Shown here: one piece after another, positions 15,902 to 32,236 of the stretch | Position numbering within the stretch: position 1 is the stretch's first letter | Layout: each line of letters begins with the position of its first letter | NCBI RefSeq assembly: GCF_015840715.1 | Contig: NZ_CP060397.1 | Span: 3,058,686-3,122,685 of the forward strand | From: Synechococcus sp. CBW1004 | GTDB lineage: Bacteria > Cyanobacteriota > Cyanobacteriia > PCC-6307 > Cyanobiaceae | Direction: 5' to 3' | DNA length: 64,000 bases | Notes under the pieces: model-generated | What the model saw: only the letters and a program-made list of their open reading frames with translations | Databases searched by the model: none | Told to the model about the DNA's origin: nothing | Made by a program: the position numbers and the translations under genes

Positions 15902-16936
15902 ATGGTCACGTCGGGATCCCTGTCCGTGCCCGATCGCGGGCGCTGCGGCGGCCTGGGGGCGGCGCGACGCTGCCGCACGGTCACCTGGAGTCCGAGCGTC
16001 ACGCTGGTGCCCAGCCGCGGCTGCTTCAACGCCTGCGGCTACTGCTCGTTCCGGCGGCCGCCCGACCCGGGCGATCCCCTGGCGGATGCCCTCAGCGATC
16101 ACGAGGCGAGGCAGGTGCTGAGGCAACGCCCCCAGGCCGCCGAGGTGCTGCTGCTCAGCGGTGAAGTGGCCCCGGGATCTCCCTGGCGCTCCGCCTGGTT
16201 CGCCCGCCTCCTGGCTCTCTCGCGCCTGGCGCTGGCTGTGGGACGCCTGCCCCACACCAACGCCGGACCGCTGTCGCTGCGCGAGATGGCGGCGCTCGGC
16301 CGCCTCAACCCTTCGATGGGTCTGATGCTCGAAGGGCTGGGCCCCGCCTACGACGCCCTGCACCGGCAGGCTCCCAGCAAGCGCCTCGCCACGCGGCTGG
16401 GCCAGCTCGAGCAGGCCGGGCGGCTCGGGATTCCGTTCACCACCGGCCTGCTGCTGGGGGTGGGCGAAACACACGCCGATCGGCGGCGGGCTCTGAAGCT
16501 GCTGGCGGAGTTGCAGCGCCGCTGGGGGCACCTCCAGGAGGTGATCCTGCAGCCCTGGCGGCCGCATGGCGAGAGGGCCCTGCTCCTCGATGATCGTCGC
16601 TGCGGCGAGCTGCTGGAGACGATCGTGGCCGCCCGTCGCATCCTGCCGGCTGAGGTGCATCTGCAGCTGCCCCCCAACCTCTGGCCCCTGGAGCGGCTGC
16701 CCCAGGCCCTGGAGGCCGGCATCGACGACCTCGGCGGCATCGATGTCCACGATGTGATCAACCCCGCCTACCCCCAGCCCGGCATCGAGCCACTGCAGTC
16801 GTTGCTGGAGCGCGCCGGCTGGCAGCTGCGGCCGCGCCTGTGTGTGCACCCGGGGTGGCAGGTGCGACTCCCCCCTGTGCTGCGGCGCCGCTGCGAGATC
16901 CTGGCCGAGCGTCTTCCGGCGTTGGGTCAGGCCTGA
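15902..16936 (+). CDS. cofG: FO synthase subunit 1 (radical SAM, CofG)
   Basis: This 344-residue radical SAM protein has the cluster motif CFNACGYCSF. The segments HTNAGPLSLREMAALGRLNPSM and IQ-type equivalents such as EVILQPWRPHGERALL match CofG, which with CofH makes 7,8-didemethyl-8-hydroxy-5-deazariboflavin. In cyanobacteria FO serves as antenna cofactor for photolyase or as F420 precursor. I use the ATG at 15902; the frame is open further upstream, but that part is Pro/Arg/Gly-rich and unlike a protein. The gap to psbA upstream (divergent) is about 400 bases. Confidence 0.85.
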   Translation: MVTSGSLSVPDRGRCGGLGAARRCRTVTWSPSVTLVPSRGCFNACGYCSFRRPPDPGDPLADALSDHEARQVLRQRPQAAEVLLLSGEVAPGSPWRSAWFARLLALSRLALAVGRLPHTNAGPLSLREMAALGRLNPSMGLMLEGLGPAYDALHRQAPSKRLATRLGQLEQAGRLGIPFTTGLLLGVGETHADRRRALKLLAELQRRWGHLQEVILQPWRPHGERALLLDDRRCGELLETIVAARRILPAEVHLQLPPNLWPLERLPQALEAGIDDLGGIDVHDVINPAYPQPGIEPLQSLLERAGWQLRPRLCVHPGWQVRLPPVLRRRCEILAERLPALGQA

Positions 16937-17034
16937 GACCTGGCGCCGCGATCCGTTCCGTGGGGCCGGAAGCCCGCCCCCTCAGGCGCCGGAGCATGGT
17001 TGTTAGCGTCCAGCCCGAATGCAAGCCACCGGCC

Positions 17035-18606
17035 ATGAGTGACCACCGGGTGCTGCTGGTACGCCTGCCCTGCAATCCGATCTTCCCGATCGGCCCGATC
17101 TATCTGGCGGATCATCTGCACAAGCAGTTCCCGGGCCTGCCGCAGCGGATCCTCGATCTGGCCGCCGTGCCCTTGCTCGATGTGCAGCGGGTGCTCAGGG
17201 GGGAGGTGGAGCGTTTCCGGCCGACCCTGCTGGTGTTCTCCTGGCGCGACATCCAGATCTATGCGCCGGTGGATGGCCGTGGCGGCAATCCGCTGCAGAA
17301 CTCCTTCGAGGTGTTCTACGCCCGCAATCCGCTGCGGCGACTGCGCGGTGCCCTGGGTGGCCTGCGCCTGATGGGCTCCTATTACGGCGAGCTGTACCGC
17401 AACCTGGCCCTGGTGCGACGCGGTCTGCGGTGGGCCCGCCGCCACCACCCGGACGCCCGCGCCGTCATCGGCGGCGGTGCCGTGAGCGTGTTCTATGAAC
17501 AGCTCGGCCGCAGGCTGCCTGCCGGCACGGTGGTGTCGGTGGGCGAGGGAGAGCCGCTGCTCGAGAAGCTGATCCGCGGTGAGTCGCTGGAGCGGGAGCG
17601 CTGCTTCCTCGCCGGTGAGGCTCCCCGGCCGGGGCTGATCCACGAGCAGCCGGCCGGCATGGAGAAGACCGCCTGCGATTACACCTATATCGCCTCGATC
17701 TGGCCCCAGCTCGACTGGTATCTCGACGGCGGCGACTTCTATGTGGGCGTGCAGACCAAGCGGGGCTGCCCCCACAACTGCTGTTACTGCGTCTACACCG
17801 TGGTGGAGGGCAAGGCGGTGCGCGTCAACCCGGTGGAGGAGGTGATCGCGGAGATGCGGCAGCTCTATGCGCGGGGCGTGCGCGGCTTCTGGTTCACCGA
17901 TGCCCAGTTCATTCCCGCGCGCCGCTACATCGAGGACGCCAAGGCGCTGCTGCGGGCGATCCAGGCCGAGGGTTGGAATGACATCCGCTGGGCGGCCTAC
18001 ATCCGCGCCGACAACCTCGATGCCGAGCTCGCCGAGCTGATGGTGGCCACGGGTATGGAGTATTTCGAGATCGGCATCACCTCCGGCTCCCAGGAGCTGG
18101 TGCGCAAGATGCGCATGGGCTACAACCTGCGCACCGTGCTCGAAAGCTGCCGGATGCTGGCGCGAGCGGGCTTCCGCCACCACGTGTCGGTGAACTACTC
18201 CTTCAACGTCATCGACGAGCGGCCCGAGACGATCCGCCAGACGGTGGCCTATCACCGTGAGCTCGAGCGCATCTTCGGGGCCGACAAGGTGGAGCCGGCG
18301 ATCTTCTTCATCGGCCTGCAGCCCCACACCCATCTGGAGCAGTACGGCTTCGATCAGGGCCTGATCAAGCCGGGCTACAACCCGATGAGCATGATGCCCT
18401 GGACCGCCCGCCAGCTGCTCTGGAACCCCGAACCGATGGGCAGCACCTTCGGTCGCCTCTGTCTGGAGGCCTTCGAGCGCAACCCCGCCGATTTCGGCCG
18501 TACGGTGATGGATCTCCTGCAGCGCGACTACGGCCTGGCACCGCTGGAGGAGGCCCTGCATGCCCCGGTCGAGGGCCGCCGCGCCCTGGCCACGGCTGTT
18601 CGCTAA
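17035..18606 (+). CDS. B12-binding-domain radical SAM protein
   Basis: A 523-residue protein from the ATG at 17035. The first 200 residues form a B12-binding-like Rossmann domain (VLLVRLPCNPIFPIGPIYLA...AVIGGGAVSVFYEQL). The radical SAM core starts at the cluster motif RGCPHNCCYCVY and continues with GFWFTDAQFIPARRYIED and YFEIGITSGSQELVRKMRMG. The family is widespread in picocyanobacteria; its reaction is unknown, though such enzymes often methylate or cyclise tetrapyrroles or lipids. The last codons (TAVR stop) form the first unit of a 19-base tandem repeat. A methyltransferase gene follows on the same strand. Confidence 0.8.
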   Translation: MSDHRVLLVRLPCNPIFPIGPIYLADHLHKQFPGLPQRILDLAAVPLLDVQRVLRGEVERFRPTLLVFSWRDIQIYAPVDGRGGNPLQNSFEVFYARNPLRRLRGALGGLRLMGSYYGELYRNLALVRRGLRWARRHHPDARAVIGGGAVSVFYEQLGRRLPAGTVVSVGEGEPLLEKLIRGESLERERCFLAGEAPRPGLIHEQPAGMEKTACDYTYIASIWPQLDWYLDGGDFYVGVQTKRGCPHNCCYCVYTVVEGKAVRVNPVEEVIAEMRQLYARGVRGFWFTDAQFIPARRYIEDAKALLRAIQAEGWNDIRWAAYIRADNLDAELAELMVATGMEYFEIGITSGSQELVRKMRMGYNLRTVLESCRMLARAGFRHHVSVNYSFNVIDERPETIRQTVAYHRELERIFGADKVEPAIFFIGLQPHTHLEQYGFDQGLIKPGYNPMSMMPWTARQLLWNPEPMGSTFGRLCLEAFERNPADFGRTVMDLLQRDYGLAPLEEALHAPVEGRRALATAVR

Positions 18607-18707
18607 GCAAACGGCTGTTCGCTAGGCCTCCGGCTGTTCGCTAGGCAAGCGGCTGTTCGCTGAGCCACTGGCTGTTCGCTGAGCATCACCCTGTTCGCTG
18701 AGCCTGA
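18594..18707 (+). repeat. Six-copy 19-bp tandem repeat across the radical SAM stop codon
   Basis: The unit is GGCTGTTCGCTRRGCNNNC, starting at 18594, 18613, 18632, 18651, 18670 and 18689 (the last copy diverges in its first bases). The spacing is exactly 19. Copy 1 encodes the C-terminal AVR and the stop TAA; the rest fills the gap to the methyltransferase start at 18713. The TAA/TAG/TGA in the core (GCTAAG, GCTAGG, GCTGAG) appears in every copy, so a stop occurs at each step as the frame rotates. Confidence 0.9.
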
Positions 18708-18712
18708 CCCCC

Positions 18713-19492
18713 ATGGAGAGCAACACCCTCGAAGACGCCGCCGCCAGGAGCGCAGCCGGCCCAGCCGCCACCCGCAACCTCTCGCCGGAGAGTCTCGCCT
18801 TGTTCGAGCGAAGCTGGCAGAGCTACCACCGCGTCGTTGAAGCCGATCTGATGGAGCACGCCGGCCTGCTCGGGGCCCTGGCGAGCCATCTCGAGGCCTT
18901 CGTGACCTGCTGGGGCCCGGCGCCGCTCAGCCTGGCGGATCTGGCCTGCGGTGATCTCACCACCCTCGAGCCTCTGCTGCGTTCGCTCCCCCTCGCCGCC
19001 TTCACCGGTGTCGATGCGGCCGCCACGGCCCTGTCCCTGGCCCGCACCCGCATGGCCGGCTGGACGGTGACCTGCCATTGGGTGCAGGACGACCTGCTGC
19101 GCTGGGCGGAGCAGCGGGGAGAGCGCCATGCCGTGATCAGTTGTCTGTTCGGCCTGCATCACCTCGCCGATGGAGACAAGCAGCGTTTTCTCGAGCAGGT
19201 CGAAGGCCGGTTGGCCGAGGGGGGGCTGCTGCTGATCGGTGATGTGTTCCGGGAGCCGGGAGAGGAGCGTCCGGCCTACTTGGAGCGTTATGTGCGCCGC
19301 ATCCGCACCCAGTGGACAGGGCTGGAGACGGCCCTGCAGGACCATGTGATCGACCACCTGACGAGCAGTGACTTCCCCGCTGCGCGTGACGCGTTCACGG
19401 CCATGGCGCAGGCGGCAGGTTGGCGGATTGCTTGGATCTGGGCAGGGCGCCATTGCGCTGAGCGGTTGGCGGTGCTGCAGCGCGCCGTTTGA
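18713..19492 (+). CDS. Class I SAM-dependent methyltransferase
   Basis: A 259-residue protein with motif I LADLACGDLTTLEPLL (loop slightly altered from the usual GxGxG), motif II FTGVDAAATALSLARTRM, and ISCLFGLHHLADGDKQRFL in place of motif IV/V, followed by EGGLLLIGDVFREPGEE. Substrate unknown. It may act with the radical SAM enzyme upstream, from which it is separated only by the 19-base repeats. A hairpin at 19514-19532 (GCTGCAC / GTGCAGC) lies just after it and could end transcription, though no T-run follows. Confidence 0.7.
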   Translation: MESNTLEDAAARSAAGPAATRNLSPESLALFERSWQSYHRVVEADLMEHAGLLGALASHLEAFVTCWGPAPLSLADLACGDLTTLEPLLRSLPLAAFTGVDAAATALSLARTRMAGWTVTCHWVQDDLLRWAEQRGERHAVISCLFGLHHLADGDKQRFLEQVEGRLAEGGLLLIGDVFREPGEERPAYLERYVRRIRTQWTGLETALQDHVIDHLTSSDFPAARDAFTAMAQAAGWRIAWIWAGRHCAERLAVLQRAV

Positions 19493-19694
19493 TCCGCTGG
19501 CTCGGCAGCGGGAGCTGCACGCGAGGTGCAGCTTCTGGAGGTTCTGCAGTTGTCTGGCTGTGATCTTCAACTGTGGCTCGATGCCGACGTCATCAGGCCC
19601 GATCGCGGTGCAAGCTCAAGAACGGCAGCAATGACAATCGGCGCAGCGCGGATAGGATAGGTTTCAGCTCATTCATTCCATCCATCCAGAGCCC

Positions 19695-21854
19695 ATGCCG
19701 CGCTTCGTGTGCATTGAACAATATTCGGAGGAGGATTGTGGTGCTGCCTGTGTGGCAACCATTGCTCTGCATTACGGCAAGCGGTTTCCCTTGTCGCGTG
19801 TGCGGGAGCTTGTGGGTACTGGCGTGAACGGGACCACCCTGCTTGGCCTTCGCCGAGGTGCTGATTCGCTCGGATTTAATTGTCGGGCGGTACGAGCTGA
19901 GGTCAAGCAAGATATTTTTTCTGATCTTCATAAAATTGAGCTCCCTGCAATCTGCCATTGGAAAGGAGACCATTGGGTGGTTTTATATGGTGTTTTCCGC
20001 AATAAAGTGGTCATCGCTGATCCGGCGGTTGGTGTGCGGTGGATCTCGCGACAAGAGTTTCTTGCCTCCTGGACCAATGGTGTGCTGCTGCTGCTCGACC
20101 CCGATTATCTGAGGCTCAACTCGCAGCCCGATGATCCTCGCATTCGTAGTAGCTATCGCAAGATCATCAAATATGTGAAGCCTCTAAGTGGATTGCTCCT
20201 CAATGCCCTACTGATCAACATTGTCATCGGCATCGTGGCCCTGGGCATGCCGATCCTCATGCAGCTGCTAACCGACGATGTGTTGGTCAGGAGAGATGCC
20301 GGCTTCCTCAGTAGCCTGGCGATCGGCATGATGATCCTACTTGGCTTTCGAGCCATACTTGACTATATTCAGAGCAAGATGTTTGGCTACTTCACCGAAC
20401 GAATCGAGCTCAATGTGATCTTGCTGTACGGACGCAAGCTATTTCAAATGCCGCTTGCCTACTTTGAAACGCACCGTAGCGGCGAGATTCTTAGTCGCAT
20501 CAGTGACATCGGGCGCATGAATGAGATTCTTAGCTTTGCGTTCGTTGGACTGCCCAGTCAATTCTTTATTGCCGCGATCTCACTCGTTGTGATGATTTTT
20601 TATTCGCCATCAATGACGTTGATGGCAGTCTGCCTTTTTGCTGTAATCATTCTAATCGATATATCGTTTTTGCCTGCAATCCGCGATAAGGCTCGTCGAG
20701 TTATTGTTAAGAACGCTCAGAATCAGGGCTTTCTAGTCGAGATGTTTCGAGGAGCTCAAGTGCTTAAGACAACTGACGCTACTCCGCAAGCATGGCAAGA
20801 ATATCAGGGCAATTTCGGAGCCATATCGCGGTTGAGTTGGCAAAGCCTAAATCTATCTGTGGCCAGCAGTACAATCAGTGAAACATTAAACGCCATCGTT
20901 CATCTTGGTCTGCTGATTTATGGCAGCAGCTTTGTTCTGAGCGGCAAGCTGAGCATTGGTCAATTGCTTGCCTTTAATGGGATGAGCTCTAATGTACTTG
21001 CTTTCTTGACGGATCTCTCAAACTTTGCGGCAAAGTATATCAATGGAAATCTAATCTTTGGACGCCTTTCCGAGGTGCTGGATGGCAAGCCTGAAGAAGT
21101 AAACCCTGACAAAAAGGTTTGGATTGATCTGCCTCCAAATGCTCCAATTACTTGTAAAAGAGTCAGCTTTTCACATCCCGGACGGGTTGAGTTGATCCGT
21201 GGACTAAATCTAGAAATCCCGGGTGGAATGACGACGGCGTTGGTCGGTGAATCAGGTTGTGGCAAAAGCACCATGGCTAAGTTGCTGGCAGGTCTATGTG
21301 AGCCGCAAAAGGGCATTGTCCAATTTGGTCCTTATGGCCAGAAGGATATCGCCCTCGATTGTTTGCGTCAGCAGATCTGCTTGGTGCCACAAGATACTCA
21401 GTTCTTTAATCGATCAATTCTCGATAACTTTAAATTCAGTTATCCAAAAGTCAGCTATGATCAGATCGTCAGAGCCTGCGAGATTTGCTTGGCCCACGAT
21501 TTTGTTTGCGAGCTCCCCGACGGCTATCATACGATTCTGGGTGAGTTTGGTGCCAACCTTTCGGGGGGGCAAAAGCAGAGATTAGCCGTTGCTAGAGCCC
21601 TAATTGCTGATCCATCAATTCTGATCCTGGATGAGTCGACTTCGGCAATGGATCCTGTGCTGGAAGGTAAATTCCTAGCCAATCTATTCTCCCATCGTGA
21701 GGGGTGTACCAATGTTTTGATCAGCCATCGTCCTAACCTAATTCTGCAATGTGATTGGGTCATTTATCTTGAGAAAGGAGGTATTAAATATCAAGGCAGA
21801 CCAAGTGATATGAAACAACGATCTTCCCTGGCTCAATTTCTGCTCAAATCATGA
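19695..21854 (+). CDS. Peptidase-containing ABC transporter (C39 peptidase, double-glycine exporter)
   Basis: A 719-residue exporter. Residues 1-130 form a C39 peptidase with catalytic Cys15 (EEDCGAACV), His93 (GDHWVVLYG) and Asp109 (IADPAVG). A six-helix ABC membrane domain covers about 160-440. The ATPase follows, with Walker A GESGCGKST (about 518), signature NLSGGQKQR (about 620), and SILILDESTSAMD. Such proteins cut leader peptides after Gly-Gly and pump out the core. All catalytic residues are present. The stop overlaps the HlyD-type gene by four bases (ATGA). Base composition is clearly AT-richer than the flanking core genes, which suggests transfer. The likely substrate is the 36-residue peptide encoded convergently at 23133-23243. 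Confidence 0.93.
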   Translation: MPRFVCIEQYSEEDCGAACVATIALHYGKRFPLSRVRELVGTGVNGTTLLGLRRGADSLGFNCRAVRAEVKQDIFSDLHKIELPAICHWKGDHWVVLYGVFRNKVVIADPAVGVRWISRQEFLASWTNGVLLLLDPDYLRLNSQPDDPRIRSSYRKIIKYVKPLSGLLLNALLINIVIGIVALGMPILMQLLTDDVLVRRDAGFLSSLAIGMMILLGFRAILDYIQSKMFGYFTERIELNVILLYGRKLFQMPLAYFETHRSGEILSRISDIGRMNEILSFAFVGLPSQFFIAAISLVVMIFYSPSMTLMAVCLFAVIILIDISFLPAIRDKARRVIVKNAQNQGFLVEMFRGAQVLKTTDATPQAWQEYQGNFGAISRLSWQSLNLSVASSTISETLNAIVHLGLLIYGSSFVLSGKLSIGQLLAFNGMSSNVLAFLTDLSNFAAKYINGNLIFGRLSEVLDGKPEEVNPDKKVWIDLPPNAPITCKRVSFSHPGRVELIRGLNLEIPGGMTTALVGESGCGKSTMAKLLAGLCEPQKGIVQFGPYGQKDIALDCLRQQICLVPQDTQFFNRSILDNFKFSYPKVSYDQIVRACEICLAHDFVCELPDGYHTILGEFGANLSGGQKQRLAVARALIADPSILILDESTSAMDPVLEGKFLANLFSHREGCTNVLISHRPNLILQCDWVIYLEKGGIKYQGRPSDMKQRSSLAQFLLKS

Positions 21855-23053
21855 ATCAGAACATTGATTCCGTTGAACTTCAGGACATCACGCCTGCGAC
21901 CATCCCAGGACGGTTAACGCTTCGCGACGAAGAAGGCTTGGCAGAACTGAAATTCGACGAATATATCCCCTCAATTCAGCCCTGGATGAAAATTTCAAGC
22001 CTGATGATGGTATCGGGCTTTTTGGCGGCCATTGCATTTATGGCTGTATGCCCTTACAGGGTCGTTGTCAGAGCAGTCGGTAATATCCGACCAGCTGGTG
22101 AGCTCAGTGTCATTAACTCACCTTTTGAGGGGAGGCTGCACAGTATCAATGTTTCCACAAATCAGGCCATTGATGCTGGTCAAGTTGTGGTTACATTGGA
22201 TCAATCAGATATGCAAGCTAGGCTCCAAGAAATCGACAATAATATTAAGCAGATTTCGATCCAAGCCGCGTCCCTAGCTGGCCAATCCGAAGCTGAGTAC
22301 GGCGCTGCTCTTGTAGAGGTTGAAAAGAACCGTGCACAGCTTAAGTTGGCAGAATCAGAGTATCGGCGCTTTCGTGGTCTGATGGCGACTGGTGCTGCTT
22401 CCATTCAACAGCTCGAAGAGCGAGAAGCCGCTTATAATATTGCCAAGGCGGGTTTTGACAAGTCGAGAAAGTTATTAGGAGAAATACAGTCTCGCAGTAA
22501 TAATCTTGAAGCTCAACTCAAGCGAGACTTGGTTACGCAAGAAGCCAGCGCTGCCAAGATCCGGAGAGATCTCGGCTATACTCAAGTGCGCTCACCCATA
22601 CGTGGAACTGTTTTTAAACTGGATGTAAGAAGCCCAGGCCAGACGATTTCAATAGGTCAACCGATAGCGAGTATCGCTCCTAAAGACGTTAATCTGGTCA
22701 TCAAGGCCATTGTCCAAAGCGAGGAAATATCCAATGTAAAAGTAGGTCAACCTGCAATTCTTAAAATCACGGGCTGCCCACACCCCGACTTCGGTGTCCT
22801 CAAAGCAAAAGTGACATCAATTGCTCCTGATGCTCTCGGGACAGAGATGAATAAACAGTCAGTCAATCAACAACTACCTGCTAATTCAGGATATGAAGTG
22901 AGACTGCAGCCAGATAAAACATACTTGGTGGCCAATACAGGACTGCGATGCCAGCTGAAAATTGGCATGGATCTAAGCGCTGATATCACCATCCGCAATG
23001 AGGCAATGCTGATGTTTTTGCTGAGAAAAGCGCGAATAGTAACGGGGAGCTAG
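21851..23053 (+). CDS. HlyD-family periplasmic adaptor of the ABC exporter
   Basis: This 400-residue protein has one N-terminal membrane helix (MVSGFLAAIAFMAVCPY, about 55-70), a lipoyl/barrel-sandwich half (IRPAGELSVINSPFEGRL), a long coiled-coil hairpin (about 110-230), and the second barrel half (YTQVRSPIRGTVFKLDVRSP). It joins the inner-membrane exporter to an outer-membrane channel of the TolC type, not encoded here. Translation is coupled to the transporter by an ATGA overlap. Confidence 0.92.
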   Translation: MNQNIDSVELQDITPATIPGRLTLRDEEGLAELKFDEYIPSIQPWMKISSLMMVSGFLAAIAFMAVCPYRVVVRAVGNIRPAGELSVINSPFEGRLHSINVSTNQAIDAGQVVVTLDQSDMQARLQEIDNNIKQISIQAASLAGQSEAEYGAALVEVEKNRAQLKLAESEYRRFRGLMATGAASIQQLEEREAAYNIAKAGFDKSRKLLGEIQSRSNNLEAQLKRDLVTQEASAAKIRRDLGYTQVRSPIRGTVFKLDVRSPGQTISIGQPIASIAPKDVNLVIKAIVQSEEISNVKVGQPAILKITGCPHPDFGVLKAKVTSIAPDALGTEMNKQSVNQQLPANSGYEVRLQPDKTYLVANTGLRCQLKIGMDLSADITIRNEAMLMFLLRKARIVTGS

Positions 23054-23132
23054 GATAAAACATCCCAACTCCCCCCGCATTCAGAAGAGGTCAATTTAAT
23101 GGCTGGCGGAAAAAGTCTCGCTGGCCGCTGAG

Positions 23133-23243
23133 TCACTTCTTGGATTTGTTGCCACTGCTGTCCTTGCCTTTTTTAGGACGCTTAGAACCGCCACCGCTGA
23201 GCAGCTCGGCTTCGTTATCATTCAATTGAGCAAAATCGCCCAT
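23133..23243 (-). CDS. Putative double-glycine-leader peptide, substrate of the adjacent exporter
   Basis: A 36-residue open frame, ATG at 23243, behind a near-perfect ribosome site (AGGAG, five bases upstream). The first 18 residues are a classical double-glycine leader: LNDNEAELLSGG, with hydrophobic residues at -4, -5 and -12, acidic residues and Gly-Gly. The core (GSKRPKKGKDSSGNKSKK) is strongly basic, with eight lysines, one arginine and no cysteine. It faces the C39 exporter/HlyD operon, 79 bases from its end, and lies downstream of the glycosyltransferase gene on its own strand. Analogous secreted small proteins (EbfG in Synechococcus elongatus) control biofilm formation. A bacteriocin or signal role is equally possible. 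No modification enzyme other than the neighbouring glycosyl/sulfotransferase is present. Confidence 0.8.
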   Translation of the reverse strand: MGDFAQLNDNEAELLSGGGSKRPKKGKDSSGNKSKK

Positions 23244-23414
23244 GGTGACTCCTTGTTGTGTTGTGTGCGGTTTGTAACGCTCAAGTTGGTCCCTTGAACG
23301 CTCTCACTCCTAGTTTATCTTAGCACCAGCGCGCGTTGGGCATCGCAGCTGTTGTCGGAGCCAAGATGGAATTCCCATGCCCCCAAGGTGCTTGTGGGAG
23401 GCTTGGTATCGATT

Positions 23415-26180
23415 CTAACCATTTTGGCGCTGGTTGTTTCGAATTCCGAAAAGATGTTCTTCAGAATCGTGCCATCGGTCTTGTAGAAGTTTGCAGAGGG
23501 TGAGCACCTTCTGGTGGGATGTGTTCCGCGATGGCGAAAATTCATCTTCTGATTTGGCGATCTCCGCCAGTGACAGATCTGGCTCCGTCAGTTCTGGATC
23601 TTCATCCAAAGCGGTTGCCTCAAGGAGTTGAAGCAGAGGTGCAAAGGAAGATCTCACGTGATGAGAGTCAGCATCTGAAAGCTGTAATTCTGTAGCTTGG
23701 CCCCCCTTGGCGACTTCCATCTTGGCGTCAAGGTCACCCCACCATTCTGCGTAGCTTCCCTGAACCGAGAAGCGCTCGTCAAGATGAATATCCTGTTCAA
23801 CTTGTTGTTTAATCGTCTCCAACTCATTCATATAAACAGTATTCACGGCGCCCAATGTGTCGATTCGTCGCTTTAATCCCTTCGGCCATTCAGGTGTCTT
23901 CAAGCCAAGCCAATCTGCCACATGACGAAGCGAACCTGTAGGGTCTTGATTGAAAGCTTCTTGTCTGACGATCAGAAGTTGCCCGATCGGAGCTGCTTGT
24001 AGCGGTTGTATCAAGGCTTCCAGGTATTGATCACAAAGCTCTTCGATCGTCAGGCATGGTATGCCGCTCATCAACGCCTGCGCTTTGGCGACTGAGTTGA
24101 GCCGGGTGATCTGATCAATTGGATCGCCAATCACCAACAGAGCGCGATGCATTGGTAACAGTTCAAACAAGAGCTGGGCAGCATAGGCTGCTGAACTGCT
24201 TCTCTCAATCAGATTGGAGACTCCGTTGATGCGACTGAAGCTCCGGCATCGTGCAGGCATGGTGGCCTGAACCAGTCTGAAATAGGCTTCCAGAGCGGTG
24301 AAAGTGCGATTCGGGCTTAGAGCTAAACCCGCATCAATTAAAGGATCAAGCCGCCAATCTCTGCTCGCTTTGTCTCGCTTTTCAAGTTGCCGCAGCCGAT
24401 TGAGGATCGTGGTCGATGAATGACGATCCAGGCAATCACCACCAAAAGCTTGGTACCAGCGATACAAAAAGTTGTTGGGAGGCAGGCCAAAAAAAGTGAT
24501 GTGATGGCAGAGGTCACGCTGTAGTCGGTGAGCGCCACAACCAACAGGCCCCAGAATAGAAATCAAATTCAGTCTCGTTTTCTTGGGACTCTCGGGCAAC
24601 GAGCTTGGCAGAAATGGAGTGTGTGATCTGTGGCGGAAGCGATCACTCACTTTCTGCCATTCCTCTAGGGACCTGGCATGTAGAAACTTCGCATTGGCTG
24701 GTGGTAAATGCCCGGCAGCTGTGAAGTGACCCCAATACCAAGTCTCAAACACCACGCTTGAGTGATCACTCCAGGCGCATCTGAAGTGTGATGTGAGATA
24801 GTTAAATGCGACGCGATCACAAAAGGGGCCAAGTTCGCGTGGCATTTGCGCCCATAGACTCAAGGAGCGAAACGCGGGTTCAAAAACCACCACAGAACTC
24901 GTATCTGCATGGCTACGACTCAGATCTTCTTCATCAAGCTGGGGCAACAACTCGCCATCAGGGAAAGCCACTTCGCGGCCAGTAAAAACGATCTCACAAC
25001 CGGTTTCACGTTGAACTCTGATCGCTGACTCCAGGTGATCGGGGAGAAACCAGTTATCGGCATCAAGGTAGGCAATGCAGGTGAAGCCTTCATTCATCGC
25101 ACAAAGGGCACCAATGCTGCGAGGCGTGTTGCCGTTGTCGTTGTGGCCCATGCCACCCAAGCGGATGTGGCGGCAGTTCAGTGCTTCGAGCTCCTCGCGT
25201 CCTTGCCCATCCGCCACAAGAAAATGGCAACAAGGGATGGTTTGTGCCAGCACGCTGTGATGGCATCGCTTCAGGATCGCAAGATCCTCGTTGTAATAGG
25301 GTGTTATGACAGCCACGCGAGGACTGTCCTTGAGATCATCTGAGTATGTCGCAGATGTCTGCTCGTTGTTTGCGACTAAACTTTTTGTGAGAATGCCATG
25401 TTGATGGCGATCCTCGATTTCAGCGAGTGCTTGGGTGTAGTCAAGCAGAAACTTCTCGGGGACGAAGTGACCTTTCCGAGTGTGAACGCGAGAAATCCCT
25501 TCGCCATGAGTTGATGTTAGGAAACGCCGCTTGTCCACCGTGTTCCGACTATGGCCAATGCAGGTAATTGTCCTGAGAGGCTCCAGCTGCACCATTGGGA
25601 CACTAAAATTGTCTAAAAAATATGCCTCCTCGGCATGTGTTGCCCCGGCTTCATAGGCATGGTTGGTGAGATAGCTGCGATGAAAGGCCAGCGTGTTGCC
25701 CGTGGCATGCCCGGAGCCAAACGCATGAATCATCCATGTCGAGCATTCTGGGAGCAGTAGCAGAGGCAGTTCGCTGGAGCCAGCAATCAGGCATTCGCTG
25801 TTCTGCAATGCGGTCACCGCATGCGAGACCCGGGTGGGAGGATAGTAATCATCATCATCCATGTAGACGATGAACTCTCCTCTACAGTATTCATGAGACA
25901 GATTGCGCTTGGCTCCAAGCTCTAAGCGTTGCTCTAAATAGTAATAGCGGACCTTGACTCCTGATTTTATGGCGTCTGTAAAGCCAAACGTGGTGGGCCC
26001 GTTAGGGCTGTCATCAATAATGATCCACTCAAGATTTGCCTGTGGATAGTCCTGCAGGATTAAAGACTGTTCCAGCAGCGGCAGCAGCGCTTGCCGTTCA
26101 TAGGTGACGGTGCAGATGCTGACGAGCGGAGTTAAATATGATGGCATAACGACGTCGGCAAGCCTGTCTGTTTCTTGCAT
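23415..26180 (-). CDS. Fused GT2 - GT2 - sulfotransferase-like protein
   Basis: A 921-residue protein in three parts. Residues about 17-260 form a GT2 glycosyltransferase (VSICTVTYERQALLPLLEQS, IVYMDDDDYYPPTRV). About 285-500 form a second GT2 domain (VAVITPYYNEDLAILKRC, CIAYLDADNWFLPDHLES). About 540-800 look like a sulfotransferase domain with a P-loop-like start (LISILGPVGCGAHRLQRDL) and a later GDPIDQITRLNSVAKAQ segment resembling the PAPS 3'-phosphate site. The tail is acidic and low-complexity. It probably builds and sulfates a surface glycan, or modifies the double-glycine peptide. The 170 bases downstream, up to the peptide gene, show no terminator. Confidence 0.75.
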   Translation of the reverse strand: MQETDRLADVVMPSYLTPLVSICTVTYERQALLPLLEQSLILQDYPQANLEWIIIDDSPNGPTTFGFTDAIKSGVKVRYYYLEQRLELGAKRNLSHEYCRGEFIVYMDDDDYYPPTRVSHAVTALQNSECLIAGSSELPLLLLPECSTWMIHAFGSGHATGNTLAFHRSYLTNHAYEAGATHAEEAYFLDNFSVPMVQLEPLRTITCIGHSRNTVDKRRFLTSTHGEGISRVHTRKGHFVPEKFLLDYTQALAEIEDRHQHGILTKSLVANNEQTSATYSDDLKDSPRVAVITPYYNEDLAILKRCHHSVLAQTIPCCHFLVADGQGREELEALNCRHIRLGGMGHNDNGNTPRSIGALCAMNEGFTCIAYLDADNWFLPDHLESAIRVQRETGCEIVFTGREVAFPDGELLPQLDEEDLSRSHADTSSVVVFEPAFRSLSLWAQMPRELGPFCDRVAFNYLTSHFRCAWSDHSSVVFETWYWGHFTAAGHLPPANAKFLHARSLEEWQKVSDRFRHRSHTPFLPSSLPESPKKTRLNLISILGPVGCGAHRLQRDLCHHITFFGLPPNNFLYRWYQAFGGDCLDRHSSTTILNRLRQLEKRDKASRDWRLDPLIDAGLALSPNRTFTALEAYFRLVQATMPARCRSFSRINGVSNLIERSSSAAYAAQLLFELLPMHRALLVIGDPIDQITRLNSVAKAQALMSGIPCLTIEELCDQYLEALIQPLQAAPIGQLLIVRQEAFNQDPTGSLRHVADWLGLKTPEWPKGLKRRIDTLGAVNTVYMNELETIKQQVEQDIHLDERFSVQGSYAEWWGDLDAKMEVAKGGQATELQLSDADSHHVRSSFAPLLQLLEATALDEDPELTEPDLSLAEIAKSEDEFSPSRNTSHQKVLTLCKLLQDRWHDSEEHLFGIRNNQRQNG

Positions 26181-26347
26181 GCGGTCTTTGGACTTTGGAT
26201 TGTCATCACCGCCTCACTGTAGCCATCTTCTGCTTGTGTGAAACGGTTGCGAGGCGACTTATGCCTGCGCTGGTCGCTGAGATCAGCGTTGAGGAGCTTT
26301 ACGCATGACCACGTATGCCTAGTGGTTTCACTCCATAATTTACGAGT

Positions 26348-26947
26348 TCATGACCTTGTGACGCTGCAGTTGAAGATCGTGGCGATTTCCGTGTGCACGG
26401 CATCGCTGCTTGCGTAGCGCTTCCACTTTGTACCTGTTATCGCTTTTTCGTAGGAGTACTGTCCCGCTTCTACATCCTCAATCGTTTTAATCTTTTGCCG
26501 TTCGTTCTCGCGGCCGGATGTGCTTAGGAGGCGTTTCTTGATATTCGCAAAAACCACGTCATGCGAGGGTTGCAGGTAGAGGAGGTGAATATCGGTTTCC
26601 TTGAAGCTCTTGCCATTGGCGGCAAGCGCTGTCGTCAATGCCTCGCGAAACCAATCGTTTGCAAATACTGCTCCTTCGGCCAGAATATGGCCATGATGTT
26701 CTCTGACATTCGGGCAGATGGAGTTCAGGCTCGTGAACATTAGTAGTTCAAGGTGCATCGTTGCTGGGTCTTTCGGCCATGATCTCCAGCTATATAGATA
26801 TGGCTTCCGAATGAATGGAAAGGCGCGCCGAGCGGCATCTGCTTGTAATGAATCTCCTTTGATGCACAAGGCTTGATCGGTATACTGCTTAAGGATAGTT
26901 GTCTTGCCACTGCCTGTGTAGCCTGCCAGGAAAATCAAGCTTGCCAT
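26348..26947 (-). CDS. P-loop kinase-like ATP-binding protein
   Basis: A 199-residue protein that opens with a textbook Walker A (LIFLAGYTGSGKTTIL), followed by LCIKGDSLQAD and a late basic lid segment (FANIKKRLLSTSGRENERQK). The layout resembles small-molecule kinases and zeta-like kinases, but no specific family is recognised. I use the ATG at 26947, right before the first strand, since upstream residues are unlike the family. Isolated on the minus strand between the CPBP gene and the glycosyltransferase. Confidence 0.6.
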   Translation of the reverse strand: MASLIFLAGYTGSGKTTILKQYTDQALCIKGDSLQADAARRAFPFIRKPYLYSWRSWPKDPATMHLELLMFTSLNSICPNVREHHGHILAEGAVFANDWFREALTTALAANGKSFKETDIHLLYLQPSHDVVFANIKKRLLSTSGRENERQKIKTIEDVEAGQYSYEKAITGTKWKRYASSDAVHTEIATIFNCSVTRS

Positions 26948-27033
26948 TGATATGCTGAAAATCAGTTGCCTCTGTCTCTCTCCAAGTTTACTTGTGGCGG
27001 ACCTTATTGTCGCCCTTGGTGCGACCAAGGCTA

Positions 27034-27891
27034 TCAAGAGGCCTCAGCCGGATGCTGCCAGTGTGGGCGCCGGATCATGATCAGAACGAGCAGCCCAAGC
27101 CATCCAATCAGCCCTCCAACGGGATTGGGATTGGGATTCCCTGGACCGACAAGCCAGACAGGAGCCTGGTTGTTAAGCTGCAAAAGCCCATTTTGCAGCA
27201 GAAAAAGCCCGCCTACCAGCCCTCCATGCAGGCCCACGGCTCCCCACAGCAACCCTTGGTCAGCTCTGCGCTGTAGGGCAAGGGCCAATCCAAGCAGGAT
27301 CAGTCCCCCCAGCAGCGTGACGGACGGCAGACCCTCGTGTTGGTACCAAGGATGCAGCAGCGCGAAGATCGTCGCTTGCAGTCCCAAGGCCCGATTGCTG
27401 CTGGTCATGAGCGATAGCTCACCCCACAACCAGCCCCGGAACAAAAGTTCTTCTGCGAATCCAACACCCGCAGCGAGAGCGATGGCATTGGCCAGAATGC
27501 CGATATCCCAAGCGCCTGCCCATCGGCCGAGATGCGTGAGCAGGAGGATGGCGACGAACCCAAAAAGCAGCGCGGCGGCTTTCAGACCGCCTCGTAGCAG
27601 CGCTCTGACGCAGACCGATGGTGCACCCACAAGTCCGAGCCGTCGCCAGGGTTCTCTTTCGCCCCAGACCAGATACAGCCGTCTGGGTAAGGTCAGGAGA
27701 AACAGAACCAGCGCCAGAACAGCGCCAGCAAGATCAACCTGATCAGGCTTGAGCTGCGGGGCGAACCAGAGGAGTGGTCGCGACAGCAGCCAGCCGAGGC
27801 CATACAGCAGTGGCACATAGATCGCCGAACTCCACCAGCGAACCCCAATCGCTTTCGGCGAATGCATGGTACGGTCATCCCGTTTTGTCAT
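27034..27891 (-). CDS. CPBP-family intramembrane protease (CAAX-type)
   Basis: A 285-residue multi-pass membrane protein with the CPBP signature: GFAEELLFRGWLWGELSL (EExxxR), then the His motif in FALLHPWYQHEG, and GLHGGLVGGLFL as the last catalytic segment. Members cleave or process membrane-bound peptides and are often linked to bacteriocin immunity. The ATG at 27891 lies four bases after the clpS stop, so the two are cotranscribed. Its position near the double-glycine peptide exporter may be coincidence. Confidence 0.85.
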   Translation of the reverse strand: MTKRDDRTMHSPKAIGVRWWSSAIYVPLLYGLGWLLSRPLLWFAPQLKPDQVDLAGAVLALVLFLLTLPRRLYLVWGEREPWRRLGLVGAPSVCVRALLRGGLKAAALLFGFVAILLLTHLGRWAGAWDIGILANAIALAAGVGFAEELLFRGWLWGELSLMTSSNRALGLQATIFALLHPWYQHEGLPSVTLLGGLILLGLALALQRRADQGLLWGAVGLHGGLVGGLFLLQNGLLQLNNQAPVWLVGPGNPNPNPVGGLIGWLGLLVLIMIRRPHWQHPAEAS

Positions 27892-27895
27892 CAAC

Positions 27896-28234
27896 TCAGG
27901 CTTCCGGTTCGATCGTGCTGGTGAGTCCCTTGGCCTTGAGTGATTCGCAGTAAAATTCTGCGGGTTCAATGTCACAGATGATTACCAGACCAATGCCGGT
28001 GTTGTGCGCTTCAAGCATCACTGCAATCGCATCTTGTTCGCTGAGTGAGGGAACAACCTGCCTGAGAGTGGCTACCACATATTCCATCGAGTTGATGGGG
28101 TCATTGTGGAGCAATACCTTGTAACGCGGAGACGGTTTGCGAGTGCGTTGCTGCTCCTTCTCGATGACAGCGATGCCACCGGATTCTTCTTTGGCTGCTC
28201 GGAGCGGCATGGATGCCTGGTCAGTTGCGTTCAT
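27896..28234 (-). CDS. clpS: ClpS adaptor of the Clp protease
   Basis: This 112-residue N-end rule adaptor carries the core YKVLLHNDPINSMEYVVATL, the EAHNTGIGLVIICDIEPAEF region that forms the N-degron pocket, and the LTSTIEPE end typical of cyanobacterial ClpS1. It delivers N-degron substrates to ClpC/ClpP. I use ATG 28234; an upstream start at 28267 is possible. Followed by the CPBP gene in one unit. Confidence 0.92.
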   Translation of the reverse strand: MNATDQASMPLRAAKEESGGIAVIEKEQQRTRKPSPRYKVLLHNDPINSMEYVVATLRQVVPSLSEQDAIAVMLEAHNTGIGLVIICDIEPAEFYCESLKAKGLTSTIEPEA

Positions 28235-28392
28235 CAGGCTCACGGTACGGGAGTCTCGGATCTGCAATCCAGACCGCCATCTTAAAGGGTCACTCGCATG
28301 ACGCAGCGCAGCCCCAGTTGCTGGGCCCTGGTTTTGCGCCGTCGCCGTGATGGTCTGCCCAAAGGCTGTTGATGGTTTGACTCGGCGCGGAG

Positions 28393-29172
28393 TCAGTGCA
28401 GGTGGTTGTTCCTGATGTAAAGCCTGATCCAGTGCACGAAGGAGCGATAACGGTATTTCGCCAGTGCCACGGCTGGCGCTGGTACGGGTGCTGAGAGATT
28501 GAGAAGCTCTTCCACCTGTCTGATCAGCTGATTGACATTTTCTGTTCCTGCGATGGTGCCACCGCCTGCACGAACGGCGGCATGGGAGGCTTCGATTGAC
28601 TTGTCGCGCAGCATCCTTGCCTCTCGAACGATGTTGACTGCGTCCTGCATGGAGGTGATCCCCGCCTCTACCGATTTCAACAGCTCACATTGGTACGACC
28701 TGCATTTTCTGGGTCTTTTCTGATAGCACTCGCATCGACCATCTGATCCGAGATACTGGCAGCCGAGGCGCATGCGAATCTCGCCATTTGACCTGGTGTA
28801 AAATTTTCCTTTGTCCTGCAGTCGTTCCTTTTCCTTGGAACTGACTTCTACCCGATCGAAGAGGGTTCCATCGCAGCAGAAGCCGCAGGCCTCGCAAACA
28901 TGCAAGGGCTCCGAGAACGTACTCTCATGGGTGTGATGTTGTTGTTCGTGGATCGATTCTGCATGACCCCTGTCTTGAGGGCTGTGCTGGTCGTCCTCCC
29001 CCAGCTGTTGTTGCGTTGTCATCGCTGGTTTTAAGGGAGGTTGATTGTCAGCCTGCATGTGGTCATTGTCTCTGTCGGGTCCTTCTGCGTTTCTGGGCTG
29101 GCGGCTTGGGTCAATCACCTGTCTCCTAGTCATGTGAGCAGATTGGGGCGTTGCGACGTTTAGAGCCTCCAT
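28393..29172 (-). CDS. YkgJ-type Cys-cluster protein
   Basis: The last 170 residues hold the zinc/iron-cluster pattern of the YkgJ family: CEACGFCCDGTLF, then LGCQYLGSDGRCECYQKRPRKC and YQCELL. The N-terminal 90 residues are a hydrophilic, His/Gln-rich tail without recognisable fold, so the true start may be further in (several internal ATGs). Function unknown; possibly a metal-dependent protein modifier. Confidence 0.65.
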   Translation of the reverse strand: MEALNVATPQSAHMTRRQVIDPSRQPRNAEGPDRDNDHMQADNQPPLKPAMTTQQQLGEDDQHSPQDRGHAESIHEQQHHTHESTFSEPLHVCEACGFCCDGTLFDRVEVSSKEKERLQDKGKFYTRSNGEIRMRLGCQYLGSDGRCECYQKRPRKCRSYQCELLKSVEAGITSMQDAVNIVREARMLRDKSIEASHAAVRAGGGTIAGTENVNQLIRQVEELLNLSAPVPAPAVALAKYRYRSFVHWIRLYIRNNHLH

Positions 29173-29288
29173 TCATTCTACTTCTTTCGCATGTCTCGCT
29201 TGCTATCAGGTGGACAAGCTTTTGAATCCTGAGTTATCTCTGCCGTCCGTCGCGTTGCTCGGCCAGCTCGAATGGCCTACATTGATGC

Positions 29289-29945
29289 ATGCTTTCATGT
29301 CCTCCAATGCCTGTTTTCCTCAAGCAGGACCAACGGCCGGTTCTGTTTGTCCACGTTCCCAAGGCAGGTGGGAGTAGCTTTTCATCTGTGATGGTGTCTT
29401 GTGGATGGCGGGAGTTGTATAGCATTCGGGGACTGCATGCCGATGCATTGGCATTTGCGCGTTGTTCTCCTCAGCATTGGCATGCCGAAATTCTTGATTG
29501 GATGTTCAAACGTGACTGTTTCGCTCATATTGTTGCCGTCTTCAGGGATCCCTTTGAGCGGTTTATGTCTGAATACCGCTGGCAATCTCACCAGGGAATG
29601 ACTTCAATGCGCCCTGCGGAGTGGACTGCTTTTGTGATTGACTCTTGCCTCCGGGACCCCTACATCTTCGATAATCACATTCGTCCTCAGTCCGACTTTG
29701 TGCTTGAGGGTGCAAGCCTTTATCGATTGGAGTCTGAGGGGTTGGCGAAGGCTCTTCGCCAATGCCTCGGCCATGCTTTTCCGATTCCAGGAGCTCATGA
29801 TCCTGATGGTGTTCCTGTTGTGTTGCCTCGTCTGAAGCAGACTGAGCACCAATCTCCGTTGCGTGATCAGTTTGAGGCGCTGCGTCCTTACATTGAGGAT
29901 TTCTACCGTAGGGACTACGATCTTCTTGCCTCTTGTTGTGATTGA
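29289..29945 (+). CDS. Sulfotransferase
   Basis: A 218-residue single-domain sulfotransferase. LFVHVPKAGGSSFSSVM is the PAPS 5'-phosphosulfate loop, and VFRDPFERFMSEYRW is the 3'-phosphate site. An ATG at 29307 is an equally good start. The stop overlaps the frame of the coiled-coil protein downstream, which itself starts 30 bases later. It probably sulfates a carbohydrate of the cell surface together with its neighbours. Confidence 0.82.
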   Translation: MLSCPPMPVFLKQDQRPVLFVHVPKAGGSSFSSVMVSCGWRELYSIRGLHADALAFARCSPQHWHAEILDWMFKRDCFAHIVAVFRDPFERFMSEYRWQSHQGMTSMRPAEWTAFVIDSCLRDPYIFDNHIRPQSDFVLEGASLYRLESEGLAKALRQCLGHAFPIPGAHDPDGVPVVLPRLKQTEHQSPLRDQFEALRPYIEDFYRRDYDLLASCCD

Positions 29946-29974
29946 CCTGTCCACCTTTTCCCTGCTTCCTTTCA

Positions 29975-32236
29975 ATGCCTTCTGATTCTTCTGCTTCTAT
30001 ACCTGCCGGTGTCAACCTTTGTTTATTCGGCCTCAATCGCTCTCTCAGTCTGACGATCGAATCGTTACGTCGACGGGTGCTGGTGCCCCTTCGTGACCTG
30101 GGTGTCTCTGTTCGCCTGTATGCTTGTTTTGTCAGGCCCTCTGCTCCTGTGGTCAATGTGCGTACAGGAGAAATGCAAGTTTTGCCTGAACGCACTGAGG
30201 CAGAGCTTCTCTCCGACGCATCGATTCGTTACGTTGATCAGCAAACCATCGACGCCATTGTTGATTGGCAGGCTATTCTGGCTCCCGGCGATCTTTTCGG
30301 TGATGCTTGTCTGGAGGGGGCAGGGGCTCCTTCCGGCTCTGTTTGTAATGCTGTCAGGGCTCTGACGAGCCTGCGTATTGCATACGAAATGATCCCCGAG
30401 GCCGACTTGGATCGCCCAGTCATATTCCTGAGGCCGGATTTAGACATTCTTTCGTCTCTGCCTTGGGAAGCTATCTTTTCTGGGTTGTCAACTCGCCCAG
30501 GTGTCAATTCTTATGGGCTGGATCGTGGCGTCGCAGTCGTTCCATCCTGGCATCGTTGGGATGGGGTCAATGATCGTTTTGCTGTTTGTTCTTCGGGTGA
30601 TGCGGCCTATTCCTACGCTCAGAGGGTGAATCTTATCCGTGATTACCTCCGCGTTTCTGCGAGGCCTTTCCATCCGGAGTCTTTTTTGCTCCACGTCTTG
30701 ACACTGCGCCACATCCGCCCGCTACCGATTGTTGATACTCCGATGGTGCGGATTCGCTGTGAAGGCAGAATCCAGTTGGAGCCCTTTGGTGATGGTCATC
30801 AACAGTGGATTTACCCTGCCGCCTCTTGGGAGCGGCTGGTCAGGCTGCATCAGGAGTCCGCTTCCAAGCTGCTTGCCGCAGAACAACTACTTTCCAGGCA
30901 AGCTGAGTTAGCAAAACTGGAACCCGCGCTGGCTGCTGCTCGTCAGGAGCTGGAGGCCTTGCGCGGTGAGGTGGAACGTTTGAGGGGTCTGGAGTCAGAG
31001 CTTGAGGAGGCGCGTTTGAGCTGCCAGCAGCTGGCGGACCGTGAGCGGGAGCTGGAGGCCTTGCGCGGTGAGGTGGAACGTTTGAGGGGTCTGGAGTCAG
31101 AGCTTGAGGAGGCGCGTTTGAGCTGCCAGCAGCTGGCGGACCGTGAGCGGGAGCTGGAGGCCTTGCGTGGTGAGGTGGAACGTTTGAGGGGTCTGGAGCC
31201 AGAGCTTGAGGAGGCGCGTTTGAGCTGCCAGCTGCTGGCGGACCGTGAGCGGGAGCTGGAGGCCGTCCGTGGCGAGGTGGAACGCCTGAGGGGTCTGGAG
31301 CCAGAGCTTGAGGAGGCGCGTTTGAGCTGCCAGCAGCTGGCGGACCGTGAGCGGGAGCTGGAGGCCGTCCGTGGCGAGGTGGAACGTTTGAGGGGTCTGG
31401 AGCCAGAGCTTGAGGAGGCGCGTTTGAGCTGCCAGCAGCTGGCGGACCGTGAGCGGGAGCTGGAGGCCGTCCGTGGCGAGGTGGAACGTTTGAGGGGTCT
31501 GGAGTCAGAGCTTGAGGAGTCGCGTTTGAGCTGCCAGCAGCTGGCGGACCGTGAGCGGGAGCTGGAGGCCTTGCGTGGTGAGGTGGAACGTTTGAGGGGT
31601 CTGGAGCCAGAGCTTGAGGAGGCGCGTTTGAGCTGCCAGCTGCTGGCGGACCGTGAGCGGGAGCTGGAGGCCGTCCGTGGCGAGGTGGAACGTTTGAGGG
31701 GTCTGGAGCCAGAGCTTGAGGAGTCGCGTTTGAGCTGCCAGCAGCTGGCGGACCGTGAGCGGGAGCTGGAGGCCGTCCGTGGCGAGGTGGAACGTTTGAG
31801 GGGTCTGGAGCCAGAGCTTGAGGAGGCGCGTTTGAGCTGCCAGCAGCTGGCGGACCGTGAGCGGGAGCTGGAGGCCTTGCGTGGCGAGGTGGAACGCCTG
31901 AGGGGACTTGACGGTGAATTTCAGGGCCTTCAGGCCCGCCTAGTCACACTCGACGCAGCTTGGCAGGAGTTGGACATCCTGCGATCTGAACTTCAGAGTT
32001 CCAGGCAGGCCATGGGTGAGCTTGATGACCTCCGCCGTGACAACGCCATCTTGATGGAGGAGCTCTCCTGTGCCCAGGAAATGTTGGAACACTGCCTGCA
32101 ACAACTGGACAGCCGCCCGGACGCATCCGACGTCACGTCCTCACGGGCGCCGCTTCCTGAGCAGCCGTCATCTCCCATGGTTACGGATACTGTCACCATC
32201 AATCTCAACCGTTCACGCCTGCTGGCCCCCGTCTGA
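29975..32236 (+). CDS. Unrecognised domain plus long tandem-repeat coiled coil
   Basis: A 753-residue protein. Residues 1 to about 290 form a globular domain of unknown family with conserved-looking motifs (IFLRPDLDILSSLPWEAIF, WDGVNDRFAVCSSGDAAYSYAQR, RPFHPESFLLHVL, RIRCEGRI). These resemble a glycosyltransferase-type enzyme found beside cyanobacterial glycan genes. Then nine full and one partial copies of a 34-residue heptad-rich repeat (ELEALRGEVERLRGLESELE...) form a coiled coil of about 330 residues, followed by a non-repetitive coil and a short tail. The repeats would set a rod length. It lies between the sulfotransferase and the alginate-lyase gene, on the same strand. Confidence 0.7.
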   Translation: MPSDSSASIPAGVNLCLFGLNRSLSLTIESLRRRVLVPLRDLGVSVRLYACFVRPSAPVVNVRTGEMQVLPERTEAELLSDASIRYVDQQTIDAIVDWQAILAPGDLFGDACLEGAGAPSGSVCNAVRALTSLRIAYEMIPEADLDRPVIFLRPDLDILSSLPWEAIFSGLSTRPGVNSYGLDRGVAVVPSWHRWDGVNDRFAVCSSGDAAYSYAQRVNLIRDYLRVSARPFHPESFLLHVLTLRHIRPLPIVDTPMVRIRCEGRIQLEPFGDGHQQWIYPAASWERLVRLHQESASKLLAAEQLLSRQAELAKLEPALAAARQELEALRGEVERLRGLESELEEARLSCQQLADRERELEALRGEVERLRGLESELEEARLSCQQLADRERELEALRGEVERLRGLEPELEEARLSCQLLADRERELEAVRGEVERLRGLEPELEEARLSCQQLADRERELEAVRGEVERLRGLEPELEEARLSCQQLADRERELEAVRGEVERLRGLESELEESRLSCQQLADRERELEALRGEVERLRGLEPELEEARLSCQLLADRERELEAVRGEVERLRGLEPELEESRLSCQQLADRERELEAVRGEVERLRGLEPELEEARLSCQQLADRERELEALRGEVERLRGLDGEFQGLQARLVTLDAAWQELDILRSELQSSRQAMGELDDLRRDNAILMEELSCAQEMLEHCLQQLDSRPDASDVTSSRAPLPEQPSSPMVTDTVTINLNRSRLLAPV
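30947..31914 (+). repeat. 102-bp coding tandem repeat, 9.5 copies
   Basis: Copies start at 30947, 31049, 31151, 31253, 31355, 31457, 31559, 31661, 31763 and 31865 (partial). They are nearly identical at the DNA level, differing by a few bases each (for example LEALRG versus LEAVRG, ESELEEARL versus EPELEESRL, QQLAD versus QLLAD). The multiple-of-three length keeps the frame. Such identity implies recent duplication or gene conversion, so copy number should vary between strains. Confidence 0.95.

Follow-up and report, generated by a model that had tools for sequence, protein, structure and literature searches.

A short reading frame at positions 23133-23243 of the window, the stretch of 64,000 nucleotides of Synechococcus sp. 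CBW1004 analyzed here, faces a C39 exporter operon. This arrangement raises the questions of whether the frame is a gene, whether its product is the substrate of the exporter, and what such a peptide might do.

The 23133-23243 frame is a double-glycine precursor gene

The minus-strand frame encodes a precursor of 36 amino acids (MGDFAQLNDNEAELLSGGGSKRPKKGKDSSGNKSKK) and consists of the leader MGDFAQLNDNEAELLSGG (23190-23243), the core GSKRPKKGKDSSGNKSKK (23136-23189), and the stop codon (23133-23135). Coordinates, strand, and stop codon were as claimed in an earlier note on this DNA. The strong ribosome site and the canonical Gly-Gly leader described there were also recovered: AAGGAG (23249-23254, minus strand) is located 5 nt before the ATG, and the leader portion ...LNDNEAELLSGG matches the double-glycine consensus. 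When ATG frames of 25-120 codons were scanned for a ribosome site combined with a double-glycine leader, a single one was found in the window, the peptide gene itself, compared to a mean of 0.025 expected from 40 simulated windows (second-order Markov model). With a leader profile derived from four homologues, the peptide was the sole match in its own genome. The profile also gave weak matches to leaders of further double-glycine peptides that are encoded next to C39 exporters (in G251 and G227), which ties the peptide leader to the double-glycine class. The peptide gene and the exporter/HlyD gene pair are convergent and lie on opposite strands. A consensus scan revealed a 14-pair inverted repeat between HlyD and the peptide gene (23044-23074), which is a candidate two-way terminator. 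No Rfam family was detected within 18000-30000. Based on its sequence, its homologues (see below), and the leader profile, the frame is a real gene.

The neighbouring exporter and conservation of the locus

The exporter gene (19695-21854, plus strand) encodes a C39 peptidase-ABC protein of the short type with 719 amino acids. Pfam identified the domains C39 (residues 5-136), ABC_membrane (169-432), and ABC_tran (502-650), all above the cut-offs, and no CAP_ED domain. As the protein also retains Cys15, His93, Asp109, the Walker A motif (518), and the LSGGQ motif (622), the earlier description of an intact peptidase-ABC transporter was borne out. Its nearest solved relative is the bacteriocin-type transporter 4ry2 (E 3e-102), and no other C39 protein was found in the genome. 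The HlyD-type periplasmic adaptor of 400 amino acids (21851-23053, plus strand), which the earlier note had also named, was confirmed by Pfam. Four other loci of the genome encode OEP/TolC-type proteins. LanM, SurA, and a second, peptidase-less ABC transporter were absent from the neighbouring proteins scanned.

A search of 300 family genomes with the 36-residue peptide revealed homologues in three other genomes. In G286, which is the same contig as Microcystis elabens FACHB-917, and in G076, which is Synechococcus sp. BSA11S and belongs to another genus, the layout is the same as in the window, with the homologue just after HlyD and on the opposite strand from exporter and HlyD. The homologues read MGHFSQLNDDDAELLSGG followed by AKPANPSTAYNGSNYGQYLKSGGTTLPNPGGKMGKNK in G286 and MGHFTQLNDDDAELLAGG followed by KKPANASTAYDGSNYGQYTKFTDPASQGNPSTL in G076. 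The fourth homologue, in G175 (MEIFASLSDLQAELLCGG followed by KKGKKKKSKSSSHPETETHVETEHSLSSELTHKNKKKK), lies near a contig end, and its neighbourhood is partly covered. Two genera are represented among the genomes with the peptide beside the exporter. Within the 18 leader codons, the window differs from G286 at 5 first, 0 second, and 11 third positions and from G076 at 5, 1, and 9, respectively. The preponderance of third-position differences indicates purifying selection on the protein sequence of the leader.

A related exporter is present in 36 of 400 family genomes, and most of those examined have at least one double-glycine ORF within a few kb. In a midpoint-rooted tree of 37 exporters, the proteins of the window, G286, and G076 grouped together in a clade with 100/100 support, separate from the remaining 34. 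G286 and G076 share 75% identity in the exporter, 63% in HlyD, and 62% in the enzyme described below, and the window shares 51-54%, 41%, and 41-45% with these two, respectively. The three proteins thus diverge in parallel, which is the pattern that joint inheritance of their genes would produce.

The peptide is most likely the substrate of the neighbouring exporter, as the earlier note had proposed. The comparison of sequences argues for this by the same leader in the same place in both clade-mates, by the purifying selection, and by the double-glycine ORFs beside most of the more distant exporters. A search for the peptide beside exporter genes in related genomes had been suggested, and it was present in G286 and G076; both of these closest relatives, which keep the exporter, keep the frame and the Gly-Gly leader. 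Peptide and exporter might also be neighbours by chance, with the exporter serving other substrates, and the location of the peptide gene on the opposite strand, apparently with its own transcript, would agree with this. However, the identical pairing in three genomes from two genera and the fact that no other leader-profile match exists in the genome make a chance neighbourhood very improbable.

The predicted core is strongly basic in the window genome

The window core comprises 18 residues with a net charge of +7 and lacks hydrophobic residues, Cys, and Tyr. Its characterization as Lys-rich and Cys-free therefore holds for this genome, whereas the Lys-richness is not kept in G286 and G076. 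Only the leader is conserved between the three peptides. The cores of the two relatives are quite different, being weakly basic, with three Tyr each and a common Tyr-rich stretch, STAY[ND]GSNYGQY, that is absent from the window core. Elsewhere in the exporter family, the usual cores are near-neutral and contain hydrophobic residues.

Strongly basic cores recur beside related exporters at or near the same chromosomal site. In G099 (L218), two double-glycine frames on the minus strand (5548-5766 and 6048-6266) have cores with 57-62% Arg+Lys (NRRRSRLRSRRS... and RRRRRSRSGISRPSRS...), and a minus-strand frame in G121 (L221, 2505-2759) contains Arg-Pro-Ser repeats (GRSRPSRPSRPS...). These frames lie downstream of the genes for a C39 exporter and HlyD, close to the radical SAM/clpS site. 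As they have GTG or TTG start codons or long leaders, they are less reliable than the window peptide. Furthermore, a short N-Y/F-G-Q-Y/F motif is common to the cores of several double-glycine peptides that are encoded next to related exporters but are otherwise dissimilar (L222 of G195, 12197-12418; L036, 9973-10140; L042, 6640-6795; L216, 3864-4163).

The layout of C39 exporter, HlyD, and double-glycine peptide is that of microcins and of cyanobacterial clusters called bacteriocins (PMC3140520), and the constant leader with a variable core would also suit a class II microcin or bacteriocin whose exported core kills competitors. However, NCBIfam models did not match the window peptide, and the scores for the CTB family bacteriocin model NF038167 (14.8 bits for G286, 18.1 bits for G076) stayed below the cut-off of 32 bits. 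As moreover the 18-residue core has no hydrophobic residue and no obvious immunity gene adjoins the peptide gene, we consider such a killing function unlikely. C39 exporters export signals too, and a single-copy peptide would be in line with an autoinducer exported for density sensing. This function appears quite improbable in view of a low-complexity core with little sequence specificity and of the neighbouring proteins scanned, among which there was no sensor kinase or regulator.

A GT2-GT2-sulfotransferase fusion is encoded beside the peptide

The earlier note had described the neighbourhood correctly with respect to exporter and HlyD, but had missed the adjoining gene at 23415-26180 (minus strand). 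It encodes a fusion protein of 921 amino acids with two GT2 domains (residues 18-250 and 286-500) and a degenerate sulfotransferase domain (residues 530-765; 23886-24593, minus strand), which has lost the PAPS-binding motifs. In each of the three genomes that combine the peptide with an exporter of the 100/100 clade, this gene is the direct neighbour of the peptide gene. It occurs in four of 400 family genomes, three times beside exporter and peptide and for the fourth time in G023. When 84,980 species genomes were scanned, within the limits set by the two peptide patterns used, G286 and G076 were the only ones to yield full-length relatives. G023 contains one longer and one partial relative, both away from any such exporter, so that the association of enzyme and peptide is not universal. 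One G023 protein of 1240 amino acids (L050, 6931-10653) carries an additional GT2 domain N-terminal to the GT-GT-sulfotransferase part, and repeated transposase-like ORFs lie on either side of its gene.

Homologues of the fusion protein outside the cyanobacteria (Enterobacteriaceae and others) match only in the first GT2 domain and have no C39 exporter nearby, and thus do not belong to the same system. In other picocyanobacteria, the second GT domain has relatives that stand alone, and these reside in a fixed, housekeeping-like neighbourhood that is not near an exporter. A stand-alone sulfotransferase (PF03567) encoded near the cassette at 29289-29945 of the window is not part of the set found in three genomes.

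The PAPS motifs are GPARSGGTLLQ and RDP in G286 and G076, but GPVGCGAHRLQ and IGDP in the window; the 5'-PSB is retained in G286, G076, and one G023 copy. The Pfam score of the sulfotransferase domain was 23.7 bits in the window (cut-off 27), compared to 63.1 in G286, 32.2 in G076, and 50.8 in G023. Codon-position differences of 0.57/0.41/0.71 in this domain versus 0.29/0.25/0.63 in the second GT domain showed that it is less constrained than the GT domains. The second GT domain is the most constrained one (61% identity, third-position bias), and the acidic motifs of both GT domains are intact (DDDD; LDADN). In a structure model with a mean pLDDT of 66, which is poor outside the first GT domain and does not model the sulfotransferase part well, the best fold matches of the tandem GT-A part, here fused to a sulfotransferase, were heparosan synthase 2 and the chondroitin polymerase K4CP (PDB 8vh8, 2z87), with a TM-score (query) of about 0.2. 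The sulfotransferase stretch was weakly nearest to heparan sulfate 3-O-sulfotransferase (E 0.005). This likeness to glycosaminoglycan enzymes in the modelled fold and in the sulfotransferase stretch would favour a glycan as product.

The enzyme might instead modify the peptide, by adding a (sulfated) disaccharide to Ser/Thr or by sulfating Tyr before cleavage and export; in the window, only the sugar transfer would still work. Besides the adjoining genes in three of three genomes, the intact acidic motifs and the strong constraint on the second GT domain speak for such a pathway, as does the fact that the relatives with intact PAPS motifs have a core stretch rich in Tyr, Ser, and Thr, both of which are missing in the window. 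The sulfotransferase may act on this stretch or on sugars attached there, and both may have been lost together in the window; with n = 3, this coincidence is a lead only. Since, in addition, the low-confidence model places the tandem GT folds closest to glycosaminoglycan polymerases rather than to peptide glycosyltransferases, and since the G023 enzyme lacks an exporter of this kind, we give peptide modification, which is a more specific form of the explanation preferred below, a reasonable chance that nevertheless falls short of even.

The cassette occupies a variable site beside clpS

The left border of the site is formed by a core gene for a B12-binding/radical SAM protein (16840-18606, plus strand, start codon uncertain). 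On the other side follow core genes (27034-28267, minus strand) whose products we take from their sequences to be a CPBP-like protein and ClpS. In many genus-mates, the radical SAM gene is directly followed by the CPBP and ClpS genes with no exporter between them, whereas in the window the four cassette genes for exporter, HlyD, peptide, and enzyme are located there. In G076, the cassette lies on the other side of ClpS, and G037, G212, G099, and G121 have exporters of this family in the corresponding neighbourhood. The stretch from exporter to enzyme has a G+C content of 46-53% and low GC3, compared to 61-71% further out on either side. The exporter-free site in genus-mates, the varied placement, and the low G+C content suggest that the cassette of C39 exporter, HlyD, peptide, and GT2-GT2-sulfotransferase was probably acquired at a variable site. 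A plasmid origin was rejected, as the GT-sulfotransferase protein is absent from plasmid records, and none of the viral contigs encodes the exporter.

Between the cassette and the CPBP-ClpS genes, the window encodes a P-loop protein matching zeta-toxin kinase (PF06414; 26348-27037). It was not counted as a cassette member because both the G286 and the G076 locus lack a homologue. Further away, 29942-32236 encodes a coiled-coil protein of 764 amino acids with several near-identical 34-residue repeats (RERELEALRGEVERLRGLESELEEARLSCQQLAD), and 32263-34368 an alginate-lyase-family protein (PF05426). A protein of the latter family with 57% identity to it is encoded several kb downstream of the G286 cassette (L052, 10757-12853).

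Comparison with known systems and proposed function

By domain content and layout, the cassette resembles the cyanobacterial bacteriocin clusters that Wang et al. (PMC3140520, published in 2011) assigned to group III and in which annotation had likewise overlooked precursors. Shared features are the short-type C39-ABC exporter without CAP_ED, HlyD without LanM, SurA, or a second peptidase-less ABC transporter, and a small unannotated double-glycine precursor near the transporter with an unconserved core. Different from these clusters are the adjacent GT2-GT2-sulfotransferase, the strongly basic 18-residue core, and the single precursor; the words 'glycosyltransferase' and 'sulfotransferase' do not occur in the text of PMC3140520. 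The cassette is thus a variant of the known cyanobacterial C39/HlyD double-glycine cluster. In the open-access literature, we found no paper linking a GT2-sulfotransferase fusion to such a peptide.

Two other systems combine such peptides with modifying enzymes. RaxX, which is sulfated by RaxST, is a small double-glycine peptide encoded together with its sulfotransferase, the HlyD adaptor RaxA, and the C39 exporter RaxB (PMC6637879). By analogy, G286 and G076 would come close to this type, with Tyr in the core and intact sulfotransferase motifs. The window shares exporter, HlyD, and leader, but its core is without Tyr and the PAPS motifs are gone; moreover, the sulfotransferase forms a single protein with two GT2 domains. 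In glycocins (sublancin; enterocin F4-9), GT2 enzymes modify the peptides (PMC8620827; PMC12457901), and here too a glycosyltransferase gene lies beside a C39 exporter and a double-glycine peptide. In contrast to glycocins, the GT is tandem and joined to a sulfotransferase, and the window core has no Cys and hence no disulfide-bonded fold. A possible role at the surface or in the matrix is suggested by analogy with another unicellular cyanobacterium, Synechococcus elongatus, where C39-dependent secretion of the double-glycine peptides EbfG1-4 via PteB is needed for biofilm (PMC4997328). EbfG1-3 were reported to form amyloid (PMC9981879), which is unlikely for the window core because it has no hydrophobic residue, and the biofilm parallel is an analogy only.

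For the locus as a whole, we favour the following explanation, which we consider more probable than not, and in which cleavage site, export, modification, and function of the peptide are inferred. The conserved acidic/hydrophobic leader would be recognized by the C39 domain of the neighbouring exporter and cut after the predicted Gly18. The core would then leave the cell through the ABC-HlyD pair and an outer-membrane protein of the TolC type whose gene lies elsewhere in the genome. With less confidence, we suggest that the fused enzyme encoded in the cassette beside clpS either modifies the peptide itself or synthesizes an anionic glycan with which the peptide comes into contact outside the cell. 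The mature peptide might be a polyanion-binding component of cell surface or matrix rather than a membrane-active bacteriocin, since with a net charge of +7 and no hydrophobic residue, binding to polyanions is likelier than membrane insertion. The polyanion idea may not hold family-wide, as basic cores occur in two separate clades and the G286 and G076 cores are weakly basic. A further, tentative proposal, which we hold to be rather doubtful, is that the product of the tandem-GT2/sulfotransferase is a sulfated sugar chain attached to the peptide or, alternatively, a chain of the glycosaminoglycan type to which the exported basic peptide binds, and that the window holds a natural variant in which sulfation has been lost and the core has become Lys-rich.

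Picocyanobacteria encode many double-glycine peptides, most of which lack annotation and hardly any of which has been assigned a function. The full gene set described here is carried by three genomes only. One peptide, one exporter as sole C39 protein, and one enzyme possibly adding sugar and sulfate would allow a clean genetic test, for which natural intact and degenerate versions of the sulfotransferase are available for comparison. If the proposed function is true, picocyanobacteria would possess a surface system composed of a peptide and a sulfated glycan.
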